Shown piece by piece: positions 39,427 to 57,300 of a stretch of 64,000 nucleotides of DNA (position 1 is its first letter; each line of letters starts with the position of its first letter). The notes under the pieces are model-generated. The model ran no database searches and was not told the DNA's origin. It was given only the letters and a program-made list of their open reading frames with translations. A program made the translations under genes and the position numbers. Source of the DNA: Betaproteobacteria bacterium (GTDB taxonomy: Bacteria; Pseudomonadota; Gammaproteobacteria; Burkholderiales; Ga0077523); the NCBI GenBank assembly GCA_016125475.1, contig WGLR01000036.1, positions 1-64,000 on the forward strand, given 5' to 3'.

Positions 39427-39663
39427 CTCCGCAGAAACGTTGGGCGCGAACCTTGCATCACCCCCCTTCGTGGCGGAAGGACTCCACGGCGAACGCGCGC
39501 CGTGCCGTGGTCATGCTCAGGCGGCCCGTGCGCGCGTGACGGCGCGCACGGGCCGGCCGGTATCGCGGTCGTTTTCAGTGTCATCCTGCGAACGCTACGC
39601 ACGCGTTCGTGAACAGTGGCGGCGATGCCGACCCCGCCGCCAATCTGGTTTAATCGAAGGGCC

Positions 39664-42600
39664 ATGACAAGCAAAACGGACATCGAACTGCTCGAACGCG
39701 CACTCCTTTCCGCAGAACCCGTCGCGGACTGCCGGGTCATCGCGCACTCGCCTTCCAATGGCGCAACCGGGTGGCTCGCCTATCTCGTCCTGCTGCGCCC
39801 CTGGACGGACGAGGAGGCCCGCGCGCACCTGCGGCACCTCGGACAGGACGATGCCCGAATCGGACACTTCGTGCCGGTGTCGGCGATCCCGCTCGGGGAC
39901 GATGGCGCGTGCGACACGGCAGGACTCGACGATGCGCGGGTGGTCGACGAGGCCGTTCTGTCCCGGATCGAGGCGCGCGCGCTCGGCCTGCCGGGCGTGG
40001 AACTCGCGGCGGCCGTTCGTGCGAATGCCGACGACGCTCCGCTTCCGGTTCACGTGTCCGACATGCTGCCGGACTGGGGTGTGCAGCACGCCCCGGACGA
40101 GGGCGGCGACACGGCGCGGCCCGTCGACGAACAGGCACGGACCCGTTCCACGACGCCGGCCGAGAGTCACGGCGGCGAGCTCGACTTCGGTGACGTACCG
40201 GTCGAGGTGCTGGACAGGATGCTGGATCGCGCAGCCGACGTCACGCCGGCCGCGCGACTCGTGTTCGTGAACGGAGCCGGCAGGCGGCGCGAGAGCACCT
40301 ATGCCGGGATTCGTGACCGGGCCCGGCGGATATGCGCGGGGCTGCGCGCCGACGGTCTGCAGCCGGGTGCGCGTGTCCTGCTGCAGTTGCGCGAGGAGTT
40401 CGATTTCGTCTGCGCGTTCTGGGCGTGCCAGCTCGGCGGATTCATCCCGGTGCCGGTCTCGATCGCGCCGAGCTACACCGAGGAGAACGCCGCGCTCACG
40501 CGCCTGCGCAGTGCGTGGACGCTCCTCGAGCGGCCGCCAATCCTCACGACTGACGGCATGCAGGCCGAGATGCGGCGCGGATGCGAGATTCTCGGTATCG
40601 AGGACGCGCGCGTGCTCACGGTCGAAGCGCTCGGGGCGCACGGAGACGGCGCGGGGGAAGCCGCGCACGAGGCCGCGCTCGACGACGTCGCGCTGATCCT
40701 GCTCACGTCGGGCAGCACCGGTGGTCCCAAGGGCGTGATGCTCACGCACCGGAACATCCTCTCGCTTTCGGCAGGCCTGCGCCAGGCGAACGGATTCAGG
40801 TCGGACGAGACGACGCTCAACTGGGTCCCGCTCGATCACGTCGGCGGCATCGTCATGTTTCACCTGCACGACACGTTCGACCATCGCCCGCAGGTGCTCG
40901 TGTCCGCCGAGTACATCCTCGCGGATCCGTTGCGGTGGCTGGACCTCGCGGACGAGTTCCGTGCGATCGCGACGTGGGCCCCGAACTTCGCCTACGCGCT
41001 CGTGAACGACCACGCGGACGAGATCGCCGCACGGAACTGGGATCTCTCGAAGCTGCGCTACATGCTGAACGGCGGCGAGGCCGTCGTCGCGCGCACGGCA
41101 CGTACCTTCCTCCGGCTGCTCGCGCCGCACGGGCTGCCGTCGACGGCGATTCGTCCAGCCTGGGGCATGTCGGAGACGTCCTCGGGTGTCGCGATCTCGC
41201 ACCGATTCCATCCGGACTCCGCGCGGGACGACGACGCCTTCGTGAGCGTCGGGGCACCGCTGCCCGGTGTCGCGTTCCGGATCGTCGACGCCGACGACAG
41301 GGTCGTTTCTGAAGGCGAGGCGGGACGGCTCCAGGTGGGTGGCGCGACGATCACGCGCGGCTATTTCGGCAACCCCGAAGCCACGGCCGAGGCGATCACG
41401 GCCGACGGCTGGCTCGACACGGGGGACCTCGGTTTCCTCGACGATGGCCAGCTCACGATCACCGGTCGTGCCAAGAACGTCATCATCATCAACGGCGTCA
41501 ACTACAACAGCCACGAGATCGAGACCGCCGTCGACGAGACGCCGGGCACGCTGACGAGCTTCTCCGCGGTCTGTGGCGTGCGCCCGCCGGGCGAGAACAC
41601 CGAGACGCTCGCCGTGTTCTTCTGTCCCGAGCGTCACGATCACGATTCGCTGCGCGACACGCTGCGCGCGGTGCGCGAGAGTGTCCTGCGCAGCGCGAAC
41701 ATCGCACCCGCCTATCTCGTCGCGCTCGATCCCGCACGCATCCCGAAGACCTCGATCGGCAAGATCCAGCGCGCCCAGCTCCAGGCCGAATTCGCGGCGG
41801 GGCGCTTCCAGCGCGAGATCCGCCTCGCCGAAGTGCTGCTCGGGGGCGCGAACGTGCTGCCGCGCTGCATGTTCCGGCCCGTCTGGCGGCGCTGCGCGCT
41901 GCCCCCGGTCGCCTGGTCGCGGCCGGCCGGTGCCACGTTTGCCGTCGCCGGTGACGCCGCGCTGCTGGCCGCCGTGACGCGGATGGCGCGGGACGAAGGC
42001 ACCGACTGCCTCGACTGGGAGGCCGTCTCGCCTGTCTCGCGCGACGCGGCGCTCGAGCGCCTGCGCGAGATCGTTTCCCGCAGCGGGAGCGTGGGCCGCG
42101 TGCTCTGGCTCGTCGCCGGCGCGGGGAGCGACGCCGGCGTGGGCGATCGCGCGCGTGCGGCCTGTTCGGACATGCTGGCCCTCTACCAGGCGATCTGCGC
42201 GATCAATCCCTCGCGGCGGCCGATGCAGTGGCTCGTCGCGACCCGATACTCGGAACCGGTTCGGGATGCCGACGACATCGATGCCGGTCACGCCGCGCTC
42301 GGGGCGCTCGTGCGTACCGTCTGTCAGGAAAGTCCGTGGCTCGACTGCCGGCTCGTCGACCTCGGCGATGCCGACGCGACGCAGGCTGCACGCGTCCTCG
42401 GCGCCGAATCCGCCGCGCATCCGCGTGACACGGAGGTCGCCTATCGTGGGGGCGATCGCTTCGTGTCCGGGCTCGCACCGGTACCCATGGACCCCGCAAC
42501 GCTCACCACCGATGTGCCGCGCCGCAACGGCACGTACCTGATCACCGGCGCATCCGGCGGGGTCGGGGCCGTGCTCGCCGAACATCTGGCGACGGCATTC

Positions 42601-45600
42601 GGTGCGCGGCTCATCCTCGTGGGCAGGCGGGCGGCCGCCGACGAGCACGCGGGCGGCCGGCGTGGCGGGCCGCTCGCGCGGCTGGCCGAGCAGGGGGCCG
42701 ACGTGCGGTACGTCCGCGCCGACGTGACCGACGCACCGGCGCTGGGCGAAGCGGTGTCGGCGGCGCTCGAGGGTTCGACGGCCGGCCTCGACGGGATCTT
42801 CCACCTCGCCGGCAGCTATCACGAGCGTTCCCTGCAGGACGAGACGGCCGACAGCCTTGCCGAGGTCATGGCGGCGAAGACGTTCGGCATCGACGCCGTG
42901 CTTGCCCTGCGCGACCGCCTCGCGCCGGATGCCTTCGTGTGTGCGTTCTCGTCGCAGATCGGCGTGTTCGGTGCGCCGCTCGCGGGTGCCTACGCGGCCG
43001 CCAACCGCTGTCTCGATGCCGCAATCGCGCGGAGCCGCAGCCGCGGGCGTCCGGACTACTCGGCTGCGTGGACGGCCTGGCGCGCGACCGGCATGAGTGC
43101 CGGGCAGGAGACGCACAACGCGATGCGCGCGATGGGCATCCTGGACCTCGCGGTCCCGCACGCGCTGGCGGCGCTGCGCATCGCGCTCCGTGCCGGCCCC
43201 GGTGCGTTCGTGATCGGTCTCGATCCGGGCAAGCCGTTCGTGCAGCGGCACGGCATCGCTCCGCTCGTCGACGGCGGCGTGACCGTGCACTACCAGGCGA
43301 AGCGCACGCTTCCGGACGGCACGACGTTCGATGCGGACACCGACGCGTTCGGGCGCCCGCTCGCGATCCGGTGGCGGCGCATCGAGCGCATGCCGCTGGA
43401 TCATTTCGGACACGTGGACCGCCAGGCGCTCGCGCGCGGTGCGCACTCCGCGGCCGGCGGGCACGGCACGGCTCCGCGCAATCCCGTCGAACGGCGGCTC
43501 GCCGAGATCTGGGCCCGCGTGCTCAACCTCGACGAGGTCGACGTCAAGGCGAACTTCTTCGACCTCGGCGGCCAGTCGCTGCTTGCGACACGCCTGCTCG
43601 CAGGCATCAGCGAGACGTTCGGTCTCAACTGGACGCTGCGCGAGGTCTTCACGAACCCGACCGTCGAGGAGCAGGCGCGCGCGATCACGTCCGGTCCGCG
43701 CGATGGTGCGGGCGACGAGATCCCGCGTGCCGATCGTTCCCGGGTCCTGCCGCTGTCGTTCGCGCAGGAGCGGCTCTGGTTCCTGGACCGGCTCGAGCCG
43801 GGCAATCCGATGTACTACGTGCCCGCGACGCTGCGCTTCACGGGCGCGCTCGACGTTCCCGCGCTGAAGCAGGCACTCGCGTGGGTCGTCGCGCGGCACG
43901 AGACGCTGCGCACGGTCTTCCCGGCCGACGGGGGCGCACCCGCGCAGAAGATCCTCGAGCCCTTCGTGCCCGAGCTTCCCCACGACACGCGCGACATGCC
44001 CGCGGCCGCGGTCTTCGAGGATGCCGTGATCGCGCTGAGCGCCCAGGAGGCGCATCACCCCTTCGACCTGGAGCGAGGGCCGCTCATTCGCGCGCGCCTC
44101 GTGAGTTTCGGGGCGGAGCACCACGTGCTGCTGCTCACGATTCATCACATCATCACCGATGGCTGGTCGATGAAGCTCCTGTTCGGCGAGATCCCCGAGT
44201 TCTACGAACTCGCGCGCGCGGGCGGGCGCCCGCCCCGCACGCCGGAGATCCAGTACGCGGACTACGCGGTCTGGCAGAAGGCGTGGTGGGAGTCGCCGGC
44301 GCGCGAGCGTCAGCTCGCGTACTGGCGCGAACGTCTCGCGGGCGTCGGCTCCGGCGTGGAGATTCCGACCGACCGGCCGCGCCCGCCCGTGCAGAGCTTC
44401 CGCGGCGCGCGTCACGTGACCATCGTGCCGCCCGCGAGCGCGAACCGCATGGAGGTGCTCGCGCAGCAGCACGGCGTCACGCCTTTCATCGTCGCCGTCG
44501 CGACCTTCGCGGTCCTGATCCAGCGGCTGACCGACCAGGACGACATCGTGATCGGAACGGTCGCGGCGAACCGGCAGCACGCCCAGGTCGAGGACATGTT
44601 CGGGCTGCTCATCAACCTGCTCGTGCTCCGCACGGGCCTCGAGGGCAATCCGTCGTTCCTGGAGGTGCTCGAGCGTGTGCGCGTGGCCGTGATCGGCGCC
44701 TACGAGCACCAGGAACTCCCGTTCGAGCGCCTCGCCGAGGAACTGCAGGTCGGGCGCGATCTCGCGCGTGCACCGCTGTTCCAGATCGCGTTCGATTTCC
44801 GGGATCCCGGGATCACCGTCGCCCCGCGGCCCGACGTCCAGGTCGGCGTGATGGAGCCCGACCTCGGCATCGCGAAGTACGACCTGCACCTCACGCTGCA
44901 CTACCGTGCCGACGGGCTCGCCACGATCTGGGAGTACGCGACGGCTCTGTTCGATCCCGACACGGTGCGGCGCATCGCGAGCCAGTACTCGCGACTGCTG
45001 GAGGCCGCGATCGAGAATCCGCGCAGCCGCATCCGGGAACTCCGGCTCACCGACCGCGACGAGGCCGCGGAGATCCTCTCGCGCTGGTGCGGCACCGGCG
45101 AGCGCGTGCCGGGCACGGAAGCCTGCGTCCACGGGATGTTCCGCGACGTCGTGCGTCGCTCTCCTGACGCGCCTGCGGTGGAGGATGTCGACGGCGCGCT
45201 CACTTACGCCGAACTCGACGCCGCGTCCGACCGTTTCGCGGGCCGGCTGCGCGCGGCCGGCGCGGGGCGCGGGCACATCGTCGCGCTCTGCGTCCCGCGC
45301 GGTCGCGGCATGATCGTCGCGCTGCTCGGCATCCTGAAGGCCGGCGCCGCCTATCTGCCTCTCGACCCGGCGTATCCGAAGGACCGACTCGCCTACATGC
45401 TCTCGGACTCGGGCGCGCAGCTGCTCGTCGCCGCGCGGCGCGTCGAGGCGTCGCTGCCCGACGGGACGCCGGCCGTCGTCTGGATGGACGAGACCGACGC
45501 GGTCACGGAGGATGCCTCCGGTGCATCGCAGCAGGACCCGGTCGGTCCGCGCGACCTCGCGTACGTGATCTACACGTCGGGTTCCACGGGACGCCCCAAG

Positions 45601-48027
45601 GGCGTGATGATCGAGCACCACAGCGCGTGCAACCTCGGTCTCGCGTTCGGCGAGGGCCTCAACATCTTCCCGGGCAAGCGCGTGATCCAGTTCGCGGCGT
45701 TCGGGTTCGACGCGTCGGTCGAGGAGATCCTGACCGCGCTGCTGCGCGGCGCCACGCTGTGCCTGCCGTCGTCGGAACAGGTCATGCCGGGCGCACCGCT
45801 GCTCGCCTATCTGCGCGATCGCCGCATCACGACGGCCACGCTGCCGCCTCCCGTGCTGCGTGCGCTGCCGGACGCCGACCTGCCCGACCTCGACACGCTC
45901 GTGAGCGCGGGCGAGGCGTGCGACGCCGAACTCGTGCGCCGCTGGGCGCCGGGTCGCTGCTTCATCAATGCCTACGGGCCGACCGAGGCGACGGTCTGCG
46001 CCACGCTCGGCGTCTGCGATCCCGCCGCGGAATCCGCACCCTCGATCGGTTTCCCGATGGACGGCACGCGCGTCTACCTGCTCGACGACGCGCTGCAGCC
46101 GGTACCGGCCGGCGTGCTCGGCGAGATCTGGGTCGGCGGGGTTGGCGTCGCGCGCGGCTATCTCGGACGCGACGACCTCACGCACGAGCGTTTTGCGCAG
46201 GATCCCTACGCCGACGCGCCCGGGGCGCGCATGTACCGCACGGGCGACGTCGCGCGCTACCGTCGCGACGGCAGCATCGAGTACGTCGGGCGCCGCGACG
46301 AGCAGCTGAAGCTCCGCGGGTTCCGTATCGAACTGGGCGAGATCGAATCCGCGCTGCGCGCGCATCCGCTCGTGACCGATGCCGCGGTCGTCGCGCTCGA
46401 GGCACCGGACGGCGAGCGCCGTCTCGCGGCGTACGTGGTTCCGGCGCGCGTCGAGGACAGCCTCGGTGCCGACGACGGATCGGGCACGCCGGAGCTCTGG
46501 CCCTGGGTCGATGCGACCGACGACGACGTCGCCGCATTCGTGCAGGAGCACGAGCCGGTCCGTCTCGCGGCCTTCCGTGCCGCGCTGCGGGGCCGCGTCG
46601 CGGACAAGGTCGTGCTGGATCTCGGCGCGGGACGCGATCTCCTGCTCGCGCGCACCTGCGTCGAGGAAGGCGCGCGGAAGGTGTTGCTGGTCGAGCCGGA
46701 CGCGGAGGCCGCCGAAGCACTGCGCGCGGGTGCCGGGCGTCTCGGTCTCTCCGCGCGTGTCGAGATCGTGCGTGCCGAACCTGCCGACCTGACCCTGTCC
46801 GAAGTGGCGGACGTGGTGGTCTCGGAGGGGCGCGTGTTCACGGACGACGTGGCGGCCCTGTTTGAGGGCATCGACGAGCGCAGGGTCTGCGCCTCCGATG
46901 TCCTGAGGGTGCCGTCCCGTGCGAGCCTGAAGGTCGCAGCGGTCGCGCTGCCGGACTCGGTCGCCGCCGCACCGGCACTCACTGCGGCGGGGGCACGCAT
47001 CGCGGAGCGGATCTTCGAACGGAACGGACGTCGTGCCGACCTGCGGCTCGGCGTGCGGCGCGTGCGTGACGAGCACGTCCTGTCCGCGCCCGCAGAGATC
47101 GGTGCGGAAGGGGGTGAACCCGCGGACATCCGGCTCCCGGTCACACGGGAGGGCGTCGTCTCGGGCCTCCTGCTCTGGCTCGACCTCGAGACGGCGCCCG
47201 GACACGTCGTCGACGGCCGGAGCGGACCGGGCGGTCTGCTGCCCCTGTTGCTGCCGGTGTTCGACACGCCCGTGCCGGTGCGCCCGGAAGACGTCATCGA
47301 GGTCGCCGTCGTCCGTACCGGCCAGGGCGATCTCAGGCAGCAGGACATCCACGTGCGGGGCGTGGTACGCCGTGGCGGCACCATTCTCGCCACGTTCGAC
47401 CACGTGTCCCGTGCCGACGCCGACGCCGTGGGGGCCACGGCGCTTCACGGGCGGCTGTTCGGCGCGGACGGCATCCCGGTGCGCGAGGGCGGCGAGGATC
47501 TCTCGGAGGCGGGCGTGCGCCGGTTCCTGTCGCGGACGCTGCCGGAGTGGATGCTGCCGGCGGACGTCGTGCTGATGGCCGCGCTCCCGCTCACCGCGAA
47601 CAACAAGACGGACCGCAAGGCACTTCCGCCGCCGCGGCGCCGCTCGGGTGCCGCGACGGCCGGCGGAGCCGCGGCTCCGCAGGGCAGCACGGAACGAGAG
47701 ATCGCCGCCGTCTGGCAGGAGGTCCTCGGCGTCGAGCGCGTCGCACGTACCGAGAACTTCTTCGACCTGGGCGGACACTCGCTCTCGATGAGCCGCGCGC
47801 ACGAGATGATCCGCGCGCGACTGAAGCGCGAGGACATCACGCTCGTGGACATGTTCAAGTACCCCACCGTCGCGGGCATCGCGGCGTTTCTGGACGGCGG
47901 CGGCGCGCAGGGCGACGCCGGCACCTCCCGCGAAGCCGCGCGGGAGCGTCTCGGTCAGGGGCGCGACCGCCTGCAGCAGATGGCGGCGCGTCGGGCACCG
48001 CGACGGAAGGCGACGGAGCAGGGATGA
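39664..48027 (+). CDS. NRPS megaenzyme: AL-KR-T-C-A(MT)-T
   Basis: This protein has 2,787 residues. Residues 1-190 look like an A-domain C-terminal subdomain without its catalytic Lys (IPLGDDGACDTAGL). An acyl-AMP ligase domain follows (about 195-700; LTSGSTGGPKGVMLTHRN), then a ketoreductase (about 950-1190; ITGASGGVG, FSSQIG, GAYAAAN) and a carrier (FFDLGGQSLL, about 1297). Next is a condensation domain (about 1360-1810; HHIITDGWS). The A domain (about 1825-2660; YTSGSTGRPKG) is interrupted between motifs A8 and A9 by a PRMT-like methyltransferase (about 2270-2605; VVLDLGAGRDLL), and its A9/A10 motifs are LPEWMLP and NNKTDRKAL. A final carrier has LGGHSLS (about 2700). The AL-KR-T part should load a carboxylic or alpha-keto acid and reduce it. 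Its stop overlaps the next start (ATGA). Confidence 0.9.
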   Translation: MTSKTDIELLERALLSAEPVADCRVIAHSPSNGATGWLAYLVLLRPWTDEEARAHLRHLGQDDARIGHFVPVSAIPLGDDGACDTAGLDDARVVDEAVLSRIEARALGLPGVELAAAVRANADDAPLPVHVSDMLPDWGVQHAPDEGGDTARPVDEQARTRSTTPAESHGGELDFGDVPVEVLDRMLDRAADVTPAARLVFVNGAGRRRESTYAGIRDRARRICAGLRADGLQPGARVLLQLREEFDFVCAFWACQLGGFIPVPVSIAPSYTEENAALTRLRSAWTLLERPPILTTDGMQAEMRRGCEILGIEDARVLTVEALGAHGDGAGEAAHEAALDDVALILLTSGSTGGPKGVMLTHRNILSLSAGLRQANGFRSDETTLNWVPLDHVGGIVMFHLHDTFDHRPQVLVSAEYILADPLRWLDLADEFRAIATWAPNFAYALVNDHADEIAARNWDLSKLRYMLNGGEAVVARTARTFLRLLAPHGLPSTAIRPAWGMSETSSGVAISHRFHPDSARDDDAFVSVGAPLPGVAFRIVDADDRVVSEGEAGRLQVGGATITRGYFGNPEATAEAITADGWLDTGDLGFLDDGQLTITGRAKNVIIINGVNYNSHEIETAVDETPGTLTSFSAVCGVRPPGENTETLAVFFCPERHDHDSLRDTLRAVRESVLRSANIAPAYLVALDPARIPKTSIGKIQRAQLQAEFAAGRFQREIRLAEVLLGGANVLPRCMFRPVWRRCALPPVAWSRPAGATFAVAGDAALLAAVTRMARDEGTDCLDWEAVSPVSRDAALERLREIVSRSGSVGRVLWLVAGAGSDAGVGDRARAACSDMLALYQAICAINPSRRPMQWLVATRYSEPVRDADDIDAGHAALGALVRTVCQESPWLDCRLVDLGDADATQAARVLGAESAAHPRDTEVAYRGGDRFVSGLAPVPMDPATLTTDVPRRNGTYLITGASGGVGAVLAEHLATAFGARLILVGRRAAADEHAGGRRGGPLARLAEQGADVRYVRADVTDAPALGEAVSAALEGSTAGLDGIFHLAGSYHERSLQDETADSLAEVMAAKTFGIDAVLALRDRLAPDAFVCAFSSQIGVFGAPLAGAYAAANRCLDAAIARSRSRGRPDYSAAWTAWRATGMSAGQETHNAMRAMGILDLAVPHALAALRIALRAGPGAFVIGLDPGKPFVQRHGIAPLVDGGVTVHYQAKRTLPDGTTFDADTDAFGRPLAIRWRRIERMPLDHFGHVDRQALARGAHSAAGGHGTAPRNPVERRLAEIWARVLNLDEVDVKANFFDLGGQSLLATRLLAGISETFGLNWTLREVFTNPTVEEQARAITSGPRDGAGDEIPRADRSRVLPLSFAQERLWFLDRLEPGNPMYYVPATLRFTGALDVPALKQALAWVVARHETLRTVFPADGGAPAQKILEPFVPELPHDTRDMPAAAVFEDAVIALSAQEAHHPFDLERGPLIRARLVSFGAEHHVLLLTIHHIITDGWSMKLLFGEIPEFYELARAGGRPPRTPEIQYADYAVWQKAWWESPARERQLAYWRERLAGVGSGVEIPTDRPRPPVQSFRGARHVTIVPPASANRMEVLAQQHGVTPFIVAVATFAVLIQRLTDQDDIVIGTVAANRQHAQVEDMFGLLINLLVLRTGLEGNPSFLEVLERVRVAVIGAYEHQELPFERLAEELQVGRDLARAPLFQIAFDFRDPGITVAPRPDVQVGVMEPDLGIAKYDLHLTLHYRADGLATIWEYATALFDPDTVRRIASQYSRLLEAAIENPRSRIRELRLTDRDEAAEILSRWCGTGERVPGTEACVHGMFRDVVRRSPDAPAVEDVDGALTYAELDAASDRFAGRLRAAGAGRGHIVALCVPRGRGMIVALLGILKAGAAYLPLDPAYPKDRLAYMLSDSGAQLLVAARRVEASLPDGTPAVVWMDETDAVTEDASGASQQDPVGPRDLAYVIYTSGSTGRPKGVMIEHHSACNLGLAFGEGLNIFPGKRVIQFAAFGFDASVEEILTALLRGATLCLPSSEQVMPGAPLLAYLRDRRITTATLPPPVLRALPDADLPDLDTLVSAGEACDAELVRRWAPGRCFINAYGPTEATVCATLGVCDPAAESAPSIGFPMDGTRVYLLDDALQPVPAGVLGEIWVGGVGVARGYLGRDDLTHERFAQDPYADAPGARMYRTGDVARYRRDGSIEYVGRRDEQLKLRGFRIELGEIESALRAHPLVTDAAVVALEAPDGERRLAAYVVPARVEDSLGADDGSGTPELWPWVDATDDDVAAFVQEHEPVRLAAFRAALRGRVADKVVLDLGAGRDLLLARTCVEEGARKVLLVEPDAEAAEALRAGAGRLGLSARVEIVRAEPADLTLSEVADVVVSEGRVFTDDVAALFEGIDERRVCASDVLRVPSRASLKVAAVALPDSVAAAPALTAAGARIAERIFERNGRRADLRLGVRRVRDEHVLSAPAEIGAEGGEPADIRLPVTREGVVSGLLLWLDLETAPGHVVDGRSGPGGLLPLLLPVFDTPVPVRPEDVIEVAVVRTGQGDLRQQDIHVRGVVRRGGTILATFDHVSRADADAVGATALHGRLFGADGIPVREGGEDLSEAGVRRFLSRTLPEWMLPADVVLMAALPLTANNKTDRKALPPPRRRSGAATAGGAAAPQGSTEREIAAVWQEVLGVERVARTENFFDLGGHSLSMSRAHEMIRARLKREDITLVDMFKYPTVAGIAAFLDGGGAQGDAGTSREAARERLGQGRDRLQQMAARRAPRRKATEQG

Positions 48028-51000
48028 CCGATCCGAACCGTGTTCCCACCGGCCTCGAGATCGCCGTGGTCGGACTGGCGGTACGCATGCCCGGCGCAGC
48101 CGACGCAGACAGCTTCTGGGCCGGTCTCGCGAGCGGCACGGAATCGATACGCTTCCACACCCGTGACGAACTGCGCGCATTCGGGGTCGATCCCGCGCTC
48201 TGCGAGGATCCCGCCCTCGTGCCCGCGCACGGCACGCTCGACGGGCACGACCTGTTCGATGCCGGCCTGTTCGGCATCACGCCCCGCGAGGCAGAGGTCA
48301 TGGATCCGCAGCAGCGCCTGTTCCTCGAGGTGGCCTGGGAGGCACTCGAGAATGCCGGCCACGAGCCCGGAGATTTTCCGGGGCCGATCTCCGTCGTCGC
48401 GGGAACCAGCGCGAACGACTACCTCGACGCGCACGTGCGCCGCAGCGCGGCCGGCCGGCGCGTGACGGGATTCCAGGCGAACATCGGCAACGGCCCGGAC
48501 TTCACCGCGACGCGCCTCAGCTACAAGCTCGACCTGCGCGGGCCGAGCCTTACCGTGCAGACGGCCTGCTCGACGTCCCTCGTCGCGATCCACCTCGCGT
48601 GCCAGCAGCTGCTGAGCGGTGCATGCGACATGGCGCTCGCGGGCGGTGCGTCGGTGTCGCTGCCCTCGAAGCGCGGCTACCGCTACGAGGAGGGGATGAT
48701 CTTCTCGCCCGACGGGCACTGCCGGGCATTCGACGCGCGCGGCGCGGGCACGCTTAAGGGCGACGGCGTGGGCGTGGTGGTGCTGCGTCGTCTCGAGGAC
48801 GCGCTGCGGGATCGCGACCACATCCACGCGGTGGTGCTCGGGACCGCGATCAACAACGACGGCGGGCGCAAGGTCGGCTACACCGCGCCGAGCGTGGCGG
48901 GGCAGGCGGAGGTCATTCGCGCCGCGCAGCTCATGGCCGACGTGGATCCGGCTTCCATCGGCTATTTCGAGGCGCACGGCACCGCGACGCCCATGGGGGA
49001 TCCGATCGAGATCGCGGCGCTGTCGCAGGCCTGCGCGGAGGACACCGACCGGCGCCAGTTCGCCGCGATCGGTTCGGTCAAGACGAACATCGGCCATCTC
49101 GACGCCGCGGCGGGCGTCGCGGGATTCACGAAGGCCGTTCTCGCGCTGGCGCACGGCGCGCTGCCGCCGAGCCTGCACTTCGAAACGCCCAATGCGGCCA
49201 TCGACTTCGCCGCGAGCCCCGTCTACGTGAACCGGGAACTGAAGCCGTGGCGCCGAAACGCGGACGCGCCCCGTCGCGCGGCGGTGAGCTCGTTCGGCAT
49301 CGGCGGCACGAACGCGCACGCGATCCTCGAGGAAGCCCCCGCGCCCGCGCCGCGTGTCGCGCGCCAGGGCGGACGGCCGCGCCTGCTCTCGCTGTCCGCG
49401 CGGTCGGACGGGGCGCTCGAGCGCGCACGGGATCGCCTGCGCGCCCACCTGGATGCCAACCCCGGCATCGACGTGGGGGACGCCGCGTTCACGCTGCAGT
49501 GCGGGCGCCGCACCTTCGCGCATCGCGGCATCGTGGCGTGCGCGGACCCCGGCGATGCCGTGACCGCGCTCGGCAACGACGGCCGATGGGTGACGGGTGT
49601 TGCGCCCGACACGGCGCGTGACATCGTCTTCCTGTTCACCGGCCAGGGGGCCCAGTACGTCGGCATGGGTCGCGGTCTGTACGAAGCCGAGCCGGTTTTC
49701 CGGAGCGCCGTGGACGAGTGCGCCGCGCTGTTCGAACCGGAACTCGGCTTCGACCTGCGCGACGTGCTGCACGCACGCGAGGACGATGCCACCGCCGCAG
49801 CGCGTCTCGTCGACACCGCGATCGCGCAGCCCGCCATCTTCACGATCGAGATCGCGCTCGCGCGCCTGTGGGCGCATCTCGGCGTGACGCCCGTCGCCGT
49901 GATCGGTCACAGCATCGGCGAGTTCGCGGCAGCCGTCGTGGCCGGCGTTTTCTCCCTCCCCGATGCCGTGGCGCTCGTCGCACTGCGCGGACGCCTCATG
50001 GGCGCGCTGCCACAGGGCGACATGGCCGCGGTCGCGCTCCCGCCCGCGGAAGTCGAACCGCTGCTCGGGCCGGGCGTGTCCGTCGCGGCGGTGAACGCAC
50101 CGACGCAGTCCGTCCTCGCGGGGGCACCGGCCGCGCTCGCCGCGACGCTCGAGCGCGTGCGCGAGCGCACGGGTGTCGAGGGTCGCGTGCTCGAGACCTC
50201 GCACGCATTCCACTCGCCGATGATGGATCCGGCGGTCCGGCCGTTCGTGGCGGCAGTCGCCGCGCGCACTCGAAGCCGGGCCACAGTGCCGATGATCTCC
50301 ACGGTGCTGGGGCGCGTGGCACGCGAGGACGAACTCGTGGATCCCGCCTACTGGGGGCGCAACCTTCGAGACCCGGTGCGGTTCGCCGATGCGATGGCTT
50401 CCGCTGCCGCGGCCTTCGAGGCCGTGTACCTCGAGACGGGGCCGGGCAACACGCTCGCGACGCTGGCGCGACGTCAGGGCGGCACGTCTGCCGTGACCGT
50501 GCCCAGCCTCCCTGCCGCCAGGGAACGCGGGCGTGACGCGTCCGTGTTCCTGGTCGAGGCGCTGGGCCGGCTCTGGGTGTCGGGTGCTCGGGTGTCGCTC
50601 GCGTCGCTGCACGAGGGGGACGAGCGTCGCGTGCCGCTGCCGACGTATCCGTTCGAGCACCGCCGCTTCTGGCTGGAGCCCGAACCGGTGGAGGCCGGGA
50701 CCCGCGCGGGACGACTGCCGTTCGCGCAGTGGTTCCACGTCCCGGGCTGGCGCAGTCTTCCGCCCCTTCCGGCCTCCGCGCGAGGCGGGAGCGGCGAGGT
50801 CTGGCTCGTGCTCGATCCCGGCGAGCCCTGGTTGGCTGCGCTCGTCGAACGGGGCCGGGCCCTCGGGCACCGGGTCGTCGTGGCGCGCGCGGCGGACGCA
50901 CCACGCCGCATATCGGACGACGTGTTCGACCTGCGTGCCGGTGTCGGCGAGGATCTCGTCTCGCTCCTGCAGGATCTGGTCGCGGCGGGCGCCTGCCCGG

Positions 51001-52568
51001 ACCGCGTGCTGCACGGATGGCTGCTGCCGCGCCTCGACGGCGAACCGGACGCCGACGATGCGGGGCTCGCGAGCGGACTGACGAACGTGGCGCCCGCGGT
51101 GGCCGCGCTGGCCGCGACATCCGGAAGGGCGACGCACTGGATCGTGCTCGCACGGGAGGTCTGCGACGTGTCCGGCGACGAGACCGTCGTGCCCGCGAAG
51201 GCGGCCGTCCTGCCGCTCGCTGCGGTGGTCGCGCAGGAACATCCCGGTCACACGTGCCGCGTGGTCGACGTGGGCGCGGGGCACGATCCCCTCGTCGACG
51301 CGCTCGTCGCGGAGGCGTGCGCCGATTCGGACGCCGGGGTCGTGGTACTGCGCGGCGAGCGTCGCTGGGCGCGTACGGTGGACGCGCTGCCGATGCCGAC
51401 CGGGGAGCTTCCCGCCTGGAAACAGGGGGGCACCTACCTGATCACGGGCGGCGCGGGCCAGCTCGGCATCGCGCTGGCCGAACACCTCATGAGCCGTCAC
51501 GGCGCGAACGTCGTGCTCCTGAGCCGGCGCGCCTTCCCGCCGCGCGAGGCGTGGGCTGCGCTCGCGGACGGCCCGGGTGACGGGGACACGGAGCGCGCGA
51601 TCCGGCGGCTGCTGGCTGCAGGCGCGGGCGACGTGCTCGTACTGTCCGCCGACGTGACCGACGAGACCCGGCTGGCCGCGGCCGTGCGCACGGCGGTCGA
51701 ACGCTTCGGGGCGCTGGACGGCGTCGTGCACGCAGCCGGCAGCATCGACGCGGACACGCTCGCACCACTTTCCGCGCTTTCGTCCGCGGCGGTCGCGAAG
51801 CAGTTCGCGCCGAAGCTCGAGGGCGCGCGCGTGCTGGAGCGCGTCCTTCGGGACCAGCCTGCAGCGCGCATCCTGGCCGTCTCGTCGACGGCGTCGCTGC
51901 TCGGGGGGCCGGGCTATGCGGCCTACGCCGCCGCGAACGCCGCGCTCGAAGCGTGGGTGAACGCGGCCCGGCGACGGGGCGTGCGGGCCGGAGCCATCGC
52001 GCTCGATGCCCTTGATCTGCGCGAAGGCGCCGCACCGGCCGCCGGGGGCGTCGTGGCCGCGGCGATCCGGCGCGACGAGATCGGTGCGGTGTTCGACGCC
52101 GCCCTGAGGATGCCGGGCGTGCCCGCCCTCGTGGTCGCCACGACGGACCTCCAGGCGAGGCTCGCGCCACAGGCTGTCCCGGCCGCGGGCGAGGACGCCA
52201 CGCTCGACGAACCGGAAACGTCGGTGTCCGGGCAGGAGGATGTCCCCCACGTCGCACCACGCGACGCGCGCGAGCAGGCGATCGCGCGGGTCTGGGAAGA
52301 CCTGCTCGGCATTCCCCGGATCGGCGTCGACCGGAACTTCTTCGAACTCGGCGGAGACTCCGTGATCGGCATCCAGGTCGTCGCGCGCCTCAAGCAGGCG
52401 GGCATCGTCGTGAGCCCGCGGGACCTCTTCGAGCATCCGACCGTGGCGGCTCTCGCGGCGGTCGCTGCCGACGCTGCGCCACCGTCTCCGGCGCCGGTGT
52501 CCCCGGCGGCCGAAACGGTCGGCGAGGACGATCTGGCGCAGCTGTCCCGGTTGCTCGGAGGGGCGTGA
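48024..52568 (+). CDS. type I PKS module: KS-AT-KR-ACP
   Basis: This 1,514-residue protein has a ketosynthase (about 10-440) with Cys in VQTACSTSLVAIHL (about 181) and His in EAHGTATPMGDPIE and NIGHLDAAAG. Its acyltransferase (about 530-830) has GHSIGEFAAA (about 628) and HAFHS (about 725), which indicates malonyl-CoA. The ketoreductase (about 1135-1330) has TGGAGQLG, a Ser in VSSTASLLG and Tyr in GYAAYAAANAA, so it looks active. An acyl carrier (LGGDSVIG, about 1441) ends the protein. With no dehydratase or enoylreductase, the module adds a beta-hydroxy two-carbon unit. It is separated from the next gene by one base. Confidence 0.92.
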   Translation: MTDPNRVPTGLEIAVVGLAVRMPGAADADSFWAGLASGTESIRFHTRDELRAFGVDPALCEDPALVPAHGTLDGHDLFDAGLFGITPREAEVMDPQQRLFLEVAWEALENAGHEPGDFPGPISVVAGTSANDYLDAHVRRSAAGRRVTGFQANIGNGPDFTATRLSYKLDLRGPSLTVQTACSTSLVAIHLACQQLLSGACDMALAGGASVSLPSKRGYRYEEGMIFSPDGHCRAFDARGAGTLKGDGVGVVVLRRLEDALRDRDHIHAVVLGTAINNDGGRKVGYTAPSVAGQAEVIRAAQLMADVDPASIGYFEAHGTATPMGDPIEIAALSQACAEDTDRRQFAAIGSVKTNIGHLDAAAGVAGFTKAVLALAHGALPPSLHFETPNAAIDFAASPVYVNRELKPWRRNADAPRRAAVSSFGIGGTNAHAILEEAPAPAPRVARQGGRPRLLSLSARSDGALERARDRLRAHLDANPGIDVGDAAFTLQCGRRTFAHRGIVACADPGDAVTALGNDGRWVTGVAPDTARDIVFLFTGQGAQYVGMGRGLYEAEPVFRSAVDECAALFEPELGFDLRDVLHAREDDATAAARLVDTAIAQPAIFTIEIALARLWAHLGVTPVAVIGHSIGEFAAAVVAGVFSLPDAVALVALRGRLMGALPQGDMAAVALPPAEVEPLLGPGVSVAAVNAPTQSVLAGAPAALAATLERVRERTGVEGRVLETSHAFHSPMMDPAVRPFVAAVAARTRSRATVPMISTVLGRVAREDELVDPAYWGRNLRDPVRFADAMASAAAAFEAVYLETGPGNTLATLARRQGGTSAVTVPSLPAARERGRDASVFLVEALGRLWVSGARVSLASLHEGDERRVPLPTYPFEHRRFWLEPEPVEAGTRAGRLPFAQWFHVPGWRSLPPLPASARGGSGEVWLVLDPGEPWLAALVERGRALGHRVVVARAADAPRRISDDVFDLRAGVGEDLVSLLQDLVAAGACPDRVLHGWLLPRLDGEPDADDAGLASGLTNVAPAVAALAATSGRATHWIVLAREVCDVSGDETVVPAKAAVLPLAAVVAQEHPGHTCRVVDVGAGHDPLVDALVAEACADSDAGVVVLRGERRWARTVDALPMPTGELPAWKQGGTYLITGGAGQLGIALAEHLMSRHGANVVLLSRRAFPPREAWAALADGPGDGDTERAIRRLLAAGAGDVLVLSADVTDETRLAAAVRTAVERFGALDGVVHAAGSIDADTLAPLSALSSAAVAKQFAPKLEGARVLERVLRDQPAARILAVSSTASLLGGPGYAAYAAANAALEAWVNAARRRGVRAGAIALDALDLREGAAPAAGGVVAAAIRRDEIGAVFDAALRMPGVPALVVATTDLQARLAPQAVPAAGEDATLDEPETSVSGQEDVPHVAPRDAREQAIARVWEDLLGIPRIGVDRNFFELGGDSVIGIQVVARLKQAGIVVSPRDLFEHPTVAALAAVAADAAPPSPAPVSPAAETVGEDDLAQLSRLLGGA

Positions 52569-52569
52569 G

Positions 52570-54300
52570 ATGCAGCAGCTCCAGAACGTCGAAAGTGTGT
52601 ACGCGCTCACGCCGCTGCAGCGGCTGATGCTCGTGAACGTCGTCCTTGCAGGGGGATCGGGCACACACATCGACCAGGTGCACCTCGAGCTCGAGGGTGC
52701 GCTCGAGCCCGCGTGCTTCCGGGACGCCTGGACGACGGTCGTCGCCCGACACCCGGCGTTGCGCACGGCCTTCTTCTGGGAAGGGCTCAGCACGCCGATG
52801 CAGGTCGTGCGGCAGACCGTGGACCTCCCCTGGGTCGAAGAGGACTGCCGGTCGCTCGACGACGAGGCGCGCGAGGCGTACGTCGCCCGGCGTCTGCGGG
52901 AGGAAGCGGAGAGACCGCTCGAACTCGACAAGGCGCCGGTCATGCGTCTCGTGCTGCTGCGAACCGGCGCCGACCGGTACGAGTTCATCTGGACCTATGC
53001 GGTGATGCTGCTCGACGGCTGGTCCGTGGCGACCGTCATGCGCGAGGTCTTCCGGCTGCACGAGGCGAACCGGACCGCCCGGCCGGTCGAGCTTCCGCCG
53101 GCCGGACCGTTCAGGGCGTTCACGCAGTGGCTCGCGACGCGCGACGAGGCCGAGGCCGAACGGTTCTGGCGCGAGGCGTTCGCCGGGGTCGCGGCGCCCA
53201 CCCCGGTCCCCTTGTCGGGGGCGCTGCCCGCGGTGGTCACGGAAGCCGAGGCCTCCGTGGAGTGCCTGCTCGACGACGCCGATCTCGATCGCCTGCGCGC
53301 GGCCGCGACGGCCACCCGTGTCACGCTCAGCACGCTCGTGCAGGGCGCGTGGGCACTCGTGCTCGCAGGGCACGCGCACCTCGACGACGTCGTGTTCGGC
53401 ATCGGGTCGGCGGGGCGGCCCGGCGAACTCGAAAACGTGGGCTCCATCGTGGGGCAGTTCACGACGAACGTCCCGGTACGGGTGCCGGTGCGCGCCGCGA
53501 CGCCGGTGGCCGAGTGGCTGCGCGAGGTCCAGCGGGCCCAGCTCGATGCGATCGAGCACGAGTACGCGCCGCTCGACCGCATCGAGCAGTGGAGCGGCCT
53601 GAGCGGCCAGCGCCTGTTCGAGTCCATCGTCCAGATCCACAACTTCCCGCTCGACGGCACGTTCTGGGACGAGCGCGGATTCACGGTCACGGGCCTGCAC
53701 AAGGTCGTGCGCACCAACTACCCGCTCGCCCTCGTCGCGATTCCGAAGCCCGGTCTCACGCTGCGCCTCGTCCACGACGAGACGCTGCTCGGGCGCACCG
53801 GTGCGGAAGCGCTGCTCGCGGAAGTGCGGTCCCTGCTGCTGCAGATTGCCGTCCGGCACTCGGAGTCGGTGGAAAGCCTGCGGGCGTCCGTGCCGCTCGC
53901 GCAGGGCGTCGCACCGGCGCGACGAACGGTTGGCGCAGCGCGAAAGGCACCCGTCGCGCCGGTCCCGCTCACGCCGCTCCAGTCCCGTCTCGCGCGGATC
54001 TGGCACGACGTGCTGGGTGTGGAGGTCACGAGCCCGGACGACAACCTGTTCGAACTCGGCGGGCGTTCCGTGCACGCGGTGCGCATCCACGAGCGCATCG
54101 TGGCCGAAGGCCTCGGCAAGCTCTCGGTCGTGGAACTGTTCCAGCATCCGACCGTGGCCCTGCTCGCGGCGCACCTGTCGCCGGACGCGCAGGGCGCACC
54201 GCCCACGCTCGCGGAGGCCGAGGCACGCGGCCGCCAGCGTGCCGACGCCGCGCGGGAGCGTCGCGACAGACTGCGCAATGCGAGGTCGCATGGCGAGTGA
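52570..54300 (+). CDS. stand-alone C-T protein with degenerate condensation motif
   Basis: This 576-residue protein has a condensation-type domain (about 10-440) opening with YALTPLQRLMLVNVVL and a carrier domain (about 460-535; NLFELGGRSVHAV). At the HHxxxDG position it has AVMLLDGWS (about 144-152), so both His residues, including the catalytic one, are missing. There is no A domain, so the carrier must be charged by another protein or only receive the chain. It may be a structural spacer, a non-catalytic docking module or an enzyme with altered chemistry. It ends in a charged helix (RGRQRADAARERRDRL) that could be a docking segment. The next gene starts 11 bases before its stop. Confidence 0.83.
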   Translation: MQQLQNVESVYALTPLQRLMLVNVVLAGGSGTHIDQVHLELEGALEPACFRDAWTTVVARHPALRTAFFWEGLSTPMQVVRQTVDLPWVEEDCRSLDDEAREAYVARRLREEAERPLELDKAPVMRLVLLRTGADRYEFIWTYAVMLLDGWSVATVMREVFRLHEANRTARPVELPPAGPFRAFTQWLATRDEAEAERFWREAFAGVAAPTPVPLSGALPAVVTEAEASVECLLDDADLDRLRAAATATRVTLSTLVQGAWALVLAGHAHLDDVVFGIGSAGRPGELENVGSIVGQFTTNVPVRVPVRAATPVAEWLREVQRAQLDAIEHEYAPLDRIEQWSGLSGQRLFESIVQIHNFPLDGTFWDERGFTVTGLHKVVRTNYPLALVAIPKPGLTLRLVHDETLLGRTGAEALLAEVRSLLLQIAVRHSESVESLRASVPLAQGVAPARRTVGAARKAPVAPVPLTPLQSRLARIWHDVLGVEVTSPDDNLFELGGRSVHAVRIHERIVAEGLGKLSVVELFQHPTVALLAAHLSPDAQGAPPTLAEAEARGRQRADAARERRDRLRNARSHGE

Positions 54301-57300
54301 CCAGGATCTCGACCTCGACAGCGCGGTAGCCGTCGTCGGGCTCGCCTGCCGGTTTCCGGGGGCTCCCGACCCGGATGCCTTCTGGCGCAACCTTCGTGAC
54401 GGCGTCGAGAGCATCCGCACATTCTCGCGCGACGAGTGCGTGGCCGCAGGCGTACCGCCCGAACTCGTCGACGATCCCGCCTTCGTGCGTGCGGGTGCTC
54501 CGGTCGAGCATGCGGAGGACTTCGACGCAGGCGTGTTCGGCATGACCCCGCGTGAAGCGGATTTCATGGATCCCCAGCACCGGGTGCTGCTGGAGTGCGC
54601 GTGGGAGGCGCTCGAGCGGGCAGGGTGCGATCCGGACCGTTTCGACGGGCCGATCGGGCTGTTCGCGGGCACGACGACCAGCACTTACCTCATGAACCAG
54701 CTCGTGCCGAGCCGGTCCTGGCAGGACGGTGCGTTCCGGGACCAGGCGATCTACGAGAACTTTCCCGGCTTCCTCGCGACACGCATCTCGTACAAGCTCG
54801 ACCTGCGCGGCCCGAGCGTCATGGTGCAGAGCGCGTGCTCGACGGCCCTGGTCGCCGTGCACCTCGCGGTCCGGAGCCTGCTCGATTTCGAGAGCGATCT
54901 GGCGCTCGCGGGCGGCGTCACCGTGCAGGTGCCGCAGACGCGCGGCTACCTGTACGAACCCGATGGCATCCTGTCTCCGGACGGGCACTGTCGTCCGTTC
55001 GACGCGAACGCCCAGGGCACCGTATTCGGCAACGGGGCGGGCATCGTCGCGCTGAAGCGTCTCGAGGACGCACTGCGCGACGGCGACACGATCCACGCCG
55101 TGGTCCTCGGCACCGCCGTGAACAACGACGGGGCCGCGAAGGCGGGCTTCACGGCACCGAGTCCGAACGGGCAGGCGGAGGTCGTCGCGACCGCCCAGGC
55201 CGTCGCGGGCGTCGATCCCCGCTGGATCACGTTCATCGAGACGCACGGAACCGGCACGGCGCTCGGAGACCCGATCGAGGTCGCCGCACTCTCGCGCGTG
55301 TTCCGCGCGAAGACCGCCGACACGGGGTTCTGCGCGCTCGGTGCGGTCAAGGGAAACGTCGGGCACCTCGACGCGGCGGCGGGCATCGCGGGCTTCATCA
55401 AGGCGGTTCTCGCGATCCGCCACGCTGTCATTCCGCCGACGCTCCACGTGGCGTCGCCGAATCCGAAGCTGGAACTCGCGGCGAGTCCGTTCTTCGTGAA
55501 CACCGACTGCCGCACGTGGTCGGACGGCGCGCACGGCCGCATCGCGGGCGTCAGCGCGTTCGGCTTCGGCGGCACGAACGCGCACGCCGTGCTCGCGCAG
55601 GCGCCCGCGCCGGCCGCCCCGGGTGCGCGCGATGCCGGCGGACCACAGGTCCTGGTCCTGTCCGCGGCGTCGCAGGCGGCCCTGGATGCGGTCGCGGAAC
55701 GCCTCGCGCAGCATCTCGAAGGCGACGGCGTCGCCGATCTCGCGGACACTGCCTTCACGCTGCAGACCGGGCGCCGCGTGCTGCCGTTCCGGCGACACGT
55801 GGTCGCGACCGACGTCGCGGATGCCGTTGTCAAGCTGAAGGAGCGCGCGACGGTTCGCGCGATGCCCGTGCGCAGTCGCAACGCGTGTTTCCTGTTTCCG
55901 GGGCAGGGTTCGCAGTTCGCGGGGATGGGCGCGGTGCTGTACGGGCGCGAACCGGTCTTCCGCGATGCCGTGGACGCGTGTGCGCGGATGCTCCAGCCCT
56001 TCCTCGGCGAGGACATCCGGGACGTGATGTTCGCGACCGGCGACGACGCCGGAGCCCGGCTCGCGCAGACGCGCTACACGCAGCCCGCCCTGTTCGTCGC
56101 GAGTCACGCGATGGCGCGCCTCTGGATGTCGTGGGGGGTCGACCCTCGCGCGCTGATCGGTCACAGCGTCGGCGAGTACGTCGCCGCCTGTGTCGCGGGC
56201 GTGATGAGTCTCGAGGACGCGCTCGCCGTCGTCGCGGAACGCGGCCGCCTCATGCAGTCCATGGAACCCGGCGAGATGCTCGCGGTGCTGGCCCCGGCCG
56301 GCGACGTGTCGCCGCGGCTCCCGCCCGGTGTCGAGATCGCCGCGATCAACTCGCCGGACGTGACCGTCTGCGCCGGCCCTTCGTCCGCGATCGCGGTCGC
56401 GCGCACGGCATTCGCGGACGCGGAGATCGAATGCCGGCCGGTCCGCACCTCGCACGCGTTCCACAGCGCGATGATGGCGCCGGCTCTGGCGCCGTTCCGC
56501 GCACGACTCGCGACGGTGACACTGTCGGCGCCGCGAATCCCGTTCGTCTCGAACGTCACGGGGGCCTGGATCACGGACGCGCAGGCGACGGACCCGGACT
56601 ACTGGTGCGCGCACCTGCGCGGCACCGTGCGTTTCTCGGATGGCGTCGAGACGCTGCTCGCGGATGCCACCGCCGTCCTGCTCGAATGCGGACCGGGCAA
56701 TGCACTGACTTCACTCGTCCGGCGCCGGGTCGCCGACAGCGGGCCCGTGGCGATCGCCACGATGGCCGGTGTCCGTGACGGCGCGGACGAGACGCACGCG
56801 CTGCTCGGTGCCGTGGGTGACTACTGGGCGGCCGGTGGCAGGCTCGACTGGAAGGCGCTGCACGGCACGCCGCGCCGGCGGGTGGAACTTCCGACGTACC
56901 CGTTCCAGCGCCGGCGCCACTGGCTCGAGCCGGGCACGGGCGGGAGGCGCGTGACCGATCTGCGGGAACCGCGCCACTGGTGTCACGTGCGCACCTGGGA
57001 GGGCCGGCCGTTCGCCGCGCCGCCCGGCGCGCTGCCCGACGGCCCGTGGCTCGTGATGTCCTCCCCGGATCCGGTCGACGTGGCCGTGGCCGAAGCTCTC
57101 GCGTCGATCGCCCCCGCAGCCGTTACGCGCGTGGTCACCGGCGTCGACGGAAGGTCGACCGCCGACGACGTGGAGCGGGCCTGGACGCAGTGCGCGGAGG
57201 CCGGCGCGACGCCGAAGACCGTATTCCGCATCGGTCTCGGCCCGCTGCCGGCCGACGCGACCGACACGGCCGGACTGCACCGCGAGCTCGATGCAGGGCT

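Follow-up and report, generated by a model that had tools for sequence, protein, structure and literature searches.

A diverged PRMT-like methyltransferase embedded in a betaproteobacterial peptide synthetase adenylation domain with an altered tyrosine-type pocket

The window, as we call the whole stretch of 64,000 nucleotides analysed here (Betaproteobacteria bacterium, assembly GCA_016125475.1, contig WGLR01000036.1, positions 1 to 64,000 of the forward strand), carries a gene for a nonribosomal peptide synthetase (NRPS) in which an adenylation (A) domain is interrupted by a methyltransferase (MT) with the predicted fold of the protein arginine methyltransferases (PRMTs). PRMT-like MTs within A domains are a known kind of enzyme, and the window copy is a strongly diverged variant of this class; its altered residues, together with an altered substrate pocket in the host A domain, suggested to us that it may no longer carry out the reaction of its ancestors. 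The protein of 2803 amino acids (aa) was matched by Pfam with two AMP-binding domains, one KR, two PP-binding domains and one Condensation domain. Its first module, AL-KR-PCP (PCP, peptidyl carrier protein), has no PRMT-like MT, and in the second A domain the AMP-binding_C match breaks off at Pfam position 36 of 76 (aa 2242-2277). The parts of the gene that concern the insert are these:

39616..48027, + strand: NRPS gene, 2803 aa, with the order AL (acyl-AMP ligase type)-KR-PCP-C-A[PRMT-fold insert]-A(C-terminal part)-PCP (Pfam and translation)
45139..46470, + strand: core of the interrupted A domain, aa 1842-2285 (Pfam AMP-binding)
upstream of the insert, + strand: A8 motif LKLRGFRIELGEIE, aa 2231-2244 (read by eye)
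46492..47460, + strand: PRMT-fold methyltransferase insert, aa 2293-2615, in frame (profile match, AlphaFold2 model and fold search)
47488..47660, + strand: C-terminal part of the A domain, LPEWMLP...NNKTDRKAL, with A10 as NNKTDRKAL, downstream of the insert (by eye)
47683..47895, + strand: PCP for the loaded amino acid, DLGGHSL (the protein has two Pfam PP-binding stretches; place by eye)

A preliminary description, made from the letters of the window, had placed a PRMT-like MT after motif A8 of an A domain, and the layout agrees with this, A8 lying upstream and A10 and the PCP downstream of the insert at 46492-47460. The three strings that it quoted, VVLDLGAGRDLL (aa 2332-2343), VVVSEGRVF (2400-2408) and LLLWLDLETAPGH (2518-2530), are all in frame in the open reading frame (ORF) 39616-48027.

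The insert matched a profile of 49 relatives, from which the window was excluded, with 183 bits over profile positions 2-334 of 336, a match well past anything that chance would give. When the insert was compared as a single sequence with the PDB by phmmer, PRMTs made up the top 29 of 37 rows, with a best E of 1.6e-4 that covers the Rossmann part only, and the family profile, with the window included, found PRMT7 at 1.6e-28 and also PRMT6 and CARM1, the best 60 of the 222 rows all being PRMTs. An AlphaFold2 model of the insert (342 residues, 50-row alignment; predicted local distance difference test, pLDDT, 88; predicted template modelling score, pTM, 0.86) matched PRMTs over residues 22-321 of the 342; since relatives were present in its alignment, the model demonstrates that the sequence is compatible with the family fold and is no independent test of that fold. 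With this model, Foldseek gave its best match to PRMT6 at 1.4e-17 (TM-score 0.60, root mean square deviation (rmsd) 7.4 over the whole chain) and VIA-align gave a Z of 23.4 to yeast HMT1, with 273 residues aligned at an rmsd of 3.5. Among the matches listed, 50 of 50 PDB fold rows were PRMTs in each of two fold searches (Z about 23), a result of the kind that the preliminary description had named as support for its claim. The insert is thus predicted to have a PRMT fold with its barrel, the Rossmann domain followed by a beta-barrel that characterises PRMTs being present in the model, which matches PRMTs across both halves. Pfam by itself gave sub-threshold generic methyltransferase matches only; a PRMT5 match at E up to 0.1 was obtained for 48 of the 50 members of the family alignment, the window being one of the two without it.

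The insert was also compared with a Tistrella protein that carries both kinds of MT. The PRMT-like MT of that protein matched it over its full length (32%, 4e-39), whereas the canonical N-methyltransferase (N-MT) gave no significant BLASTP match (E 1.4; one N-MT compared). Within the limits of that one comparison, the insert shows no sequence similarity to the canonical NRPS N-MTs (Mb, TioS class), consistent with the proposal in the preliminary description that its class differs from the usual one. Separately, a frameshifted copy, with a local wrong frame lying behind the residue losses described below, was ruled out, as the other five reading frames gave no match to the 49-relative profile.

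To define the family, named genomes were scanned with a four-sequence profile, which gave at least 80 loci; with three plasmid loci (of 12 plasmid matches, H1, H2, H3 and H5 were examined) these make up 83 rows, in which L117 and L118 have identical MT rows. The 80 loci were found with the patterns DE[ILT]LY[QYH]AM or E[LFM]WP[CS]... (146 stretches matched a pattern), so that degenerate members without these motifs would escape the scan. An A8 motif was found by script within 120 aa upstream in 53 of the 83 rows, and in 28 of the 83 an A10 also lay within 70 aa downstream; short ORFs account for 8 rows, and of the remaining 22, inspection by eye found a variant A8 in 17 and modules without A8 in 5, so that about 70 of the 83 follow an A8. 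Full-length relatives at the same insertion site occur in many phyla, and the window insert shares with them both the position between A8 and A10 and homology over the whole length. A PRMT-like MT within an A domain is thus not new in itself, and such a domain is also in print as a presumed O-methyltransferase (OMT) (PMC10127204).

Close relatives of the window copy were sparse. Among 12 genomes of the window's taxonomic family, its own was the only one with a full-length match, the match in G710 being partial (E 2.3e-5). When genomes sampled from the phylum (398) and the class (369) were searched with the family profile at E 1e-15, four full-profile matches besides the window were obtained: L182 and L183, which are in the genomes of L004 and L003, and L171 and L172; the other rows were partial matches that look like general PRMT-like proteins where read. 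When the window protein was the sole query, a scan of genome contigs found no relative, and there was no match among the plasmids.

Alignment with the 83 relatives revealed where the window copy differs:

46519..46536, + strand: Asp2302 and Ala2307, both Tyr in 83 of 83 relatives; Asp2303 unchanged (alignment)
46561..46695, + strand: SAM (S-adenosylmethionine)-binding side kept, Arg2316, Asp2335, Gly2337, Gly2339 and Glu2360 (by homology to PRMT SAM-binding residues)
46825..46848, + strand: double-Glu loop, with Glu2404 kept, Asp2411 for the second Glu and the loop two residues shorter (alignments)
46999..47001, + strand: Ile2462, where 83 of 83 relatives have Tyr (alignment)
47236..47238, + strand: Leu2541, where 83 of 83 relatives have Trp, at the THW-loop position (alignment)

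At positions 2302, 2307, 2411, 2462 and 2541, every aligned relative has Tyr, Tyr, Glu, Tyr and Trp, and the window has Asp, Ala, Asp, Ile and Leu. These five were picked after seeing which fully conserved positions had changed. A less biased figure comes from the 102 positions at which 80% or more of the relatives agree: the window keeps 55 of them, against 72 to 102 in the other 83 rows. Part of the conservation at and around Tyr2307 is a product of the search patterns; Glu2411, Tyr2462 and Trp2541 lie outside them. Eight members were reached without patterns: L003, L004, L043, L044, L045, L046, L171 and L172. All but the last two also belong to the 83 rows, where three of them appear as L051, L052 and L098. 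Seven of the eight keep all five residues; L172 keeps four, its second Glu being Asp, and has Gly in place of the first Glu as well. Arg2316, Gly2337, Gly2339, Glu2360 and Glu2404 are kept in the window, and all five are identical in 75 of the 83 relatives, the exceptions being Asp at 2360 in six and Ala at 2404 in two. By homology with PRMTs, we take the changed residues to lie on the acceptor side and the kept ones to be the SAM side and the first Glu, and the insert would on this basis be expected to bind SAM. Of the double-Glu loop that the preliminary description had read at VVVSEGRVF, the first Glu (Glu2404) stands, and the second is not clearly present; the THW loop of PRMTs is absent, and the acceptor-side residues shared by the NRPS-embedded PRMT-like OMT family are missing, with the reservation that the place of the second Glu depends on the alignment. 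PRMT motifs were taken as in PMC12153873.

The MT has diverged more quickly than the A domain that holds it, as judged by sequence comparison with two proteins, L117 and L075, that have the window's order AL-KR-PCP-C-A[MT]-PCP, an intact MT and a Tyr code. Between these two the MT is 48.6% and the A core 42.1% identical; the window has 29.0% (MT) and 43.5% (A core) identity to L117, and 30.2% and 47.5% to L075. The AL, C and PCP domains stayed within about 7 points across the three comparisons (9 for one PCP), the window's KR identities fell 6 to 7 points below that between L117 and L075, and the short A10 piece gave 52% (L117) and 38% (L075) for the window versus 52% for L117-L075. Over 2145 pairs from 66 hosts, the identity of the window MT lay 3.1 to 4.1 standard deviations (sd) below that predicted from A-domain identity (twelve pairs listed). 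In a tree, the window fell within the family on a very long branch (4.15, the median being 0.25), with its placement flagged as unsure (nearest fork 89/85). Neutral simulation gave mean profile scores of 175 to 216 bits, and the window scored 184. The second-position GC content was 0.497; the neutral expectation at 60% residual identity depends on the ancestor chosen, being 0.51 for L090 and L100, 0.61 for L126 and 0.60 for L098.

The host A domain has also changed, in its substrate pocket:

45721-45723, + strand: Glu at pocket position 239, aa 2036 (alignment)

The pocket code, read from the alignment, is DAETVAAVCK, a Tyr type in which Ser239 is replaced by Glu; position 239 presumably sits at the tip of the aromatic side chain. 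Codes could be read in 66 host A domains, and 51 of these match DA[SAL]T[IVLAT]A[AG][VI][CGA]K, a pattern that we take as Tyr-like. The window does not have this usual host code, and 15 of the 66 hosts also deviate. The nearest A domains compared were those of L090 (54%; Tyr-coded, with an intact MT) and of Eleftheria terrae (52%; Phe-type code). Literature searches for pocket codes found none; as one of them also missed common Tyr codes, this result carries little weight. Glu239 occurs in six other hosts (L055, L056, L058, L060, L076 and L109), all of which keep all five acceptor residues. Five of these (all except L076) combine the intact residues with codes of the form DVE[ND]xGAITK instead of Tyr codes.

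Loss of the first Glu was seen in hosts that are not Tyr-like: it is Ala in L059 (DAFFLGVTFK) and L064 (DAWTIGAVCK), and Gly in L172 (G1113), whose interrupted A domain, by eye, has no usual Asp235. None of the 51 Tyr-like hosts has lost it, against 2 of 15 non-Tyr hosts (Fisher 0.049; 0.012 with L172). The L059 and L064 MTs are, from their sequences, probably inactive, and the L172 insert is perhaps another dead insert.

Several known or sampled systems share the arrangement found here. The terminal NRPS of Tistrella mobilis plasmid pTM3 (L043/L098), with the layout C-A-PRMT-like MT-N-MT-PCP-TE by eye, carries its MT (32% identity over the full length) at the same site but differs in its Tyr-type code DASTLAAVCK, in having the five acceptor residues and in its additional canonical N-MT; from its strain, layout and neighbours, and not from any annotation, we take it to be DidJ, the terminal module of didemnin. 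Similarly, the NRPS WP_159402678 of Nostoc sp. ATCC 53789 (L044) has the same A-domain site, and differs in its code DASTIAGIGK, its intact acceptor residues and, by eye, one more condensation-like domain behind the PCP; we assume on the same grounds, again not shown by annotation, that it is CrpC, a cryptophycin module. The Acanthopleuribacter pedis NRPS (L117/L118) has the window's domain order and, as in the window, is followed first by a PKS (polyketide synthase) KS-AT-KR gene and next by a gene beginning with a PKS module; unlike the window it has the Tyr code DASTIAAVCK and an intact MT, and its later genes differ. Hyella L075 has the window's AL-KR-PCP-C-A[MT]-PCP order, but ends in an additional C domain. 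PRMT1, PRMT6, PRMT7 and CARM1 share with the insert the Rossmann domain and beta-barrel, motif I and the first Glu of the double-Glu loop; unlike in these, the second Glu of the insert is not clearly present, there is no THW, and the substrate would be a PCP-bound amino acid.

Published systems were compared by description. The LynB3 OMT domain lies within an A domain, is about 30% similar to arginine methyltransferases and is presumed to methylate the Tyr hydroxyl (PMC10127204). The LynB3/LynB5 OMTs of lyngbyapeptin B (Moorena bouillonii) thus resemble the window in having an arginine-methyltransferase-like MT within the A domain, and LynB3 differs in its additional N-MT and presumed Tyr target (PMC10127204). 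Hectoramide HcaA-MT1 groups with the vatiamide VatN OMT, with Tyr as the predicted target and a Tistrella OMT as outgroup, and the PRMT fold is not mentioned in the part of the source at hand (PMC10949194). KtzH and ColG are listed as A8-A9 side-chain OMTs, and their Ms domains are like the window in this type of interruption (PMC11355689); unlike the window's family, they act on Ser (KtzH, PMC11355689; ColG, PMC10127204).

By descent the insert belongs to a family of side-chain, mostly Tyr, OMTs that interrupt NRPS A domains after A8, and we propose the following history for it. In the ancestor, the A domain would have loaded Tyr on the PCP and the embedded MT would have moved a methyl group in cis from SAM to the phenol oxygen, which the literature proposes as acceptor for the PRMT-like NRPS MT family (PMC10127204). 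In the window copy the A pocket has gone from Ser to Glu at position 239 and the acceptor side of the MT has changed along with it, the fold and the SAM side staying as they were. Because the module would have switched away from Tyr, the ancestral phenol O-methylation would have lost its substrate, and the insert, now non-methylating or much weakened, may be retained because it is built into the A domain. That the insert no longer performs the ancestral reaction, the module most likely having left Tyr, seems to us about evenly balanced, and we favour it over a retargeted enzyme and over plain formation of O-methyl-Tyr. Several points weigh against it. Simple decay would not be expected to spare the SAM-side residues and the first Glu, yet these are intact. 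The hydrophobic pattern is kept at 82 of 99 positions, above the neutral simulation means (72 to 74, sd about 4), but the top run among the 40 from each start came to 82 to 84 and so matched the window's count. The second Glu is equated with Asp2411 in three larger alignments and with Glu2417 in a three-row alignment, in a loop where the AlphaFold2 model is least confident; even Asp there would be compatible with activity, as PRMT7 E181D gains dimethylation (PMC12153873). The pocket code differs from the Tyr code at a single position. The first Glu is kept in 13 of the 15 non-Tyr hosts, and a non-Tyr code is therefore usually no sign of loss; L059 and L064 adjoin in the tree, so the precedent for first-Glu loss comes down to few events. 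Finally, the 12 genomes of the window's family held no close orthologue (the G710 match being partial) for a ratio of nonsynonymous to synonymous change (dN/dS).

In the retargeted enzyme, which we consider possible but clearly less probable than loss of the ancestral reaction, the A pocket and the acceptor pocket of the MT would have changed together so that the SAM methyl passes to another side-chain atom, for instance by side-chain N-methylation of a Lys-like residue or p-amino-Phe. The kept SAM-side residues, first Glu and predicted fold would fit this, as would a hydrophobic pattern above the neutral mean and the acidic residues gained at Asp2302 and Asp2411. A side chain with a positive charge could be a partner for Glu239; a bacitracin Lys code probably has Glu239 too, and the literature search turned up no such string. 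Against it, the six Glu239 relatives keep all five acceptor residues, and a change of substrate alone therefore needs no loss of them; moreover, no p-amino-Phe pathway was recognised in 17 distinct flanking proteins, most of them scanned with one library, the rest of the genome not being searched. For the narrower version, a methyl group on a side-chain nitrogen (Lys-like or amino-aryl, chosen by Glu239) in an acceptor pocket rebuilt from a Tyr OMT, we see little likelihood; side-chain N-methylation, raised in the preliminary description, is possible but unsupported, and side-chain methylation of any kind by the insert is uncertain because the window copy differs at the family's acceptor-side residues. 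An ordinary Tyr OMT, diverged yet still working, with an A domain that loads Tyr and an insert that makes O-methyl-Tyr on the PCP, strikes us as slightly less probable again than retargeting. This is the function proposed in print for the LynB3 OMT (PMC10127204) and for HcaA-MT1 and the VatN OMT (PMC10949194), nine of the ten code letters are those of DASTVAAVCK, and both the nearest interrupted host (L090, A identity about 54%) and the same-layout proteins L117 and L075 are Tyr-coded; on the other side stand the change of five residues invariant in 83 of 83 relatives and the loss of 47 of 102 conserved positions. A backbone N-MT of the ordinary NRPS kind (TioS/Mb class) would account for an insert at the usual A8-A9 site, and we regard it as highly improbable: it was ruled out by the profile and fold searches, in which the best 60 of 222 PDB profile rows and the 50 listed fold rows per search were PRMTs, together with the lack of a significant BLASTP match to the Tistrella N-MT.

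The NRPS gene is followed on the same strand by further biosynthetic genes:

47547..52568, + strand: next gene, PKS KS-AT-KR-ACP (ORF start overlaps the NRPS end; KS starts near 48057; Pfam)
53801..58822, + strand: second PKS gene, KS-AT-KR-ACP (Pfam)
58857..62228, + strand: second NRPS gene, C-A-PCP (Pfam)

A separate gene at 52570-54300, between the two PKS genes, has 32% identity to the start of an Acanthopleuribacter NRPS and, from its sequence, looks like a stand-alone C domain. After the cluster, at 62225-63969 and from L047 onward, lie two hydrolases similar to exosortase A system hydrolases 2 and 1, with matches under the curated cut-offs, and these are followed by exopolysaccharide-type glycosyltransferase genes. 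The source genome also encodes a further PRMT-like protein, L002 (G000:C22:22256-22528), which matches the insert weakly (38% over 92 residues).

Members of the family were also seen in other settings. In L068, L082, L086, L088, L102 and L171 the same PRMT-like MT lies outside any A8 site; the Pfam order of L102 is AMP-binding, KR, MT, PP-binding and then KS-AT-DH-KR, with the MT after the KR, and the others are alike by eye. In Magnetococcales, L051 and L052 (the same as L003 and L004) are stand-alone MTs that carry a TubC docking domain at the N terminus and have NRPS genes as neighbours, and are perhaps a trans-acting form of the embedded MT. Stand-alone relatives on Streptomyces linear plasmids (L045 and L046) lie near an arginine deiminase family gene in both cases, and near an inosamine-phosphate amidinotransferase in L045; these could possibly be PRMT-fold enzymes acting on a small guanidine compound.

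The window copy offers a natural experiment on the response of a tailoring domain to a change of substrate in the A domain that surrounds it. If such copies are inactive, the acceptor-side residues would be a simple predictor of which embedded MTs really methylate. If instead the insert is active on another atom, it would represent a new specificity for NRPS tailoring, and, were that atom a nitrogen, arginine-methyltransferase chemistry would have come back to a nitrogen acceptor, on a carrier protein.

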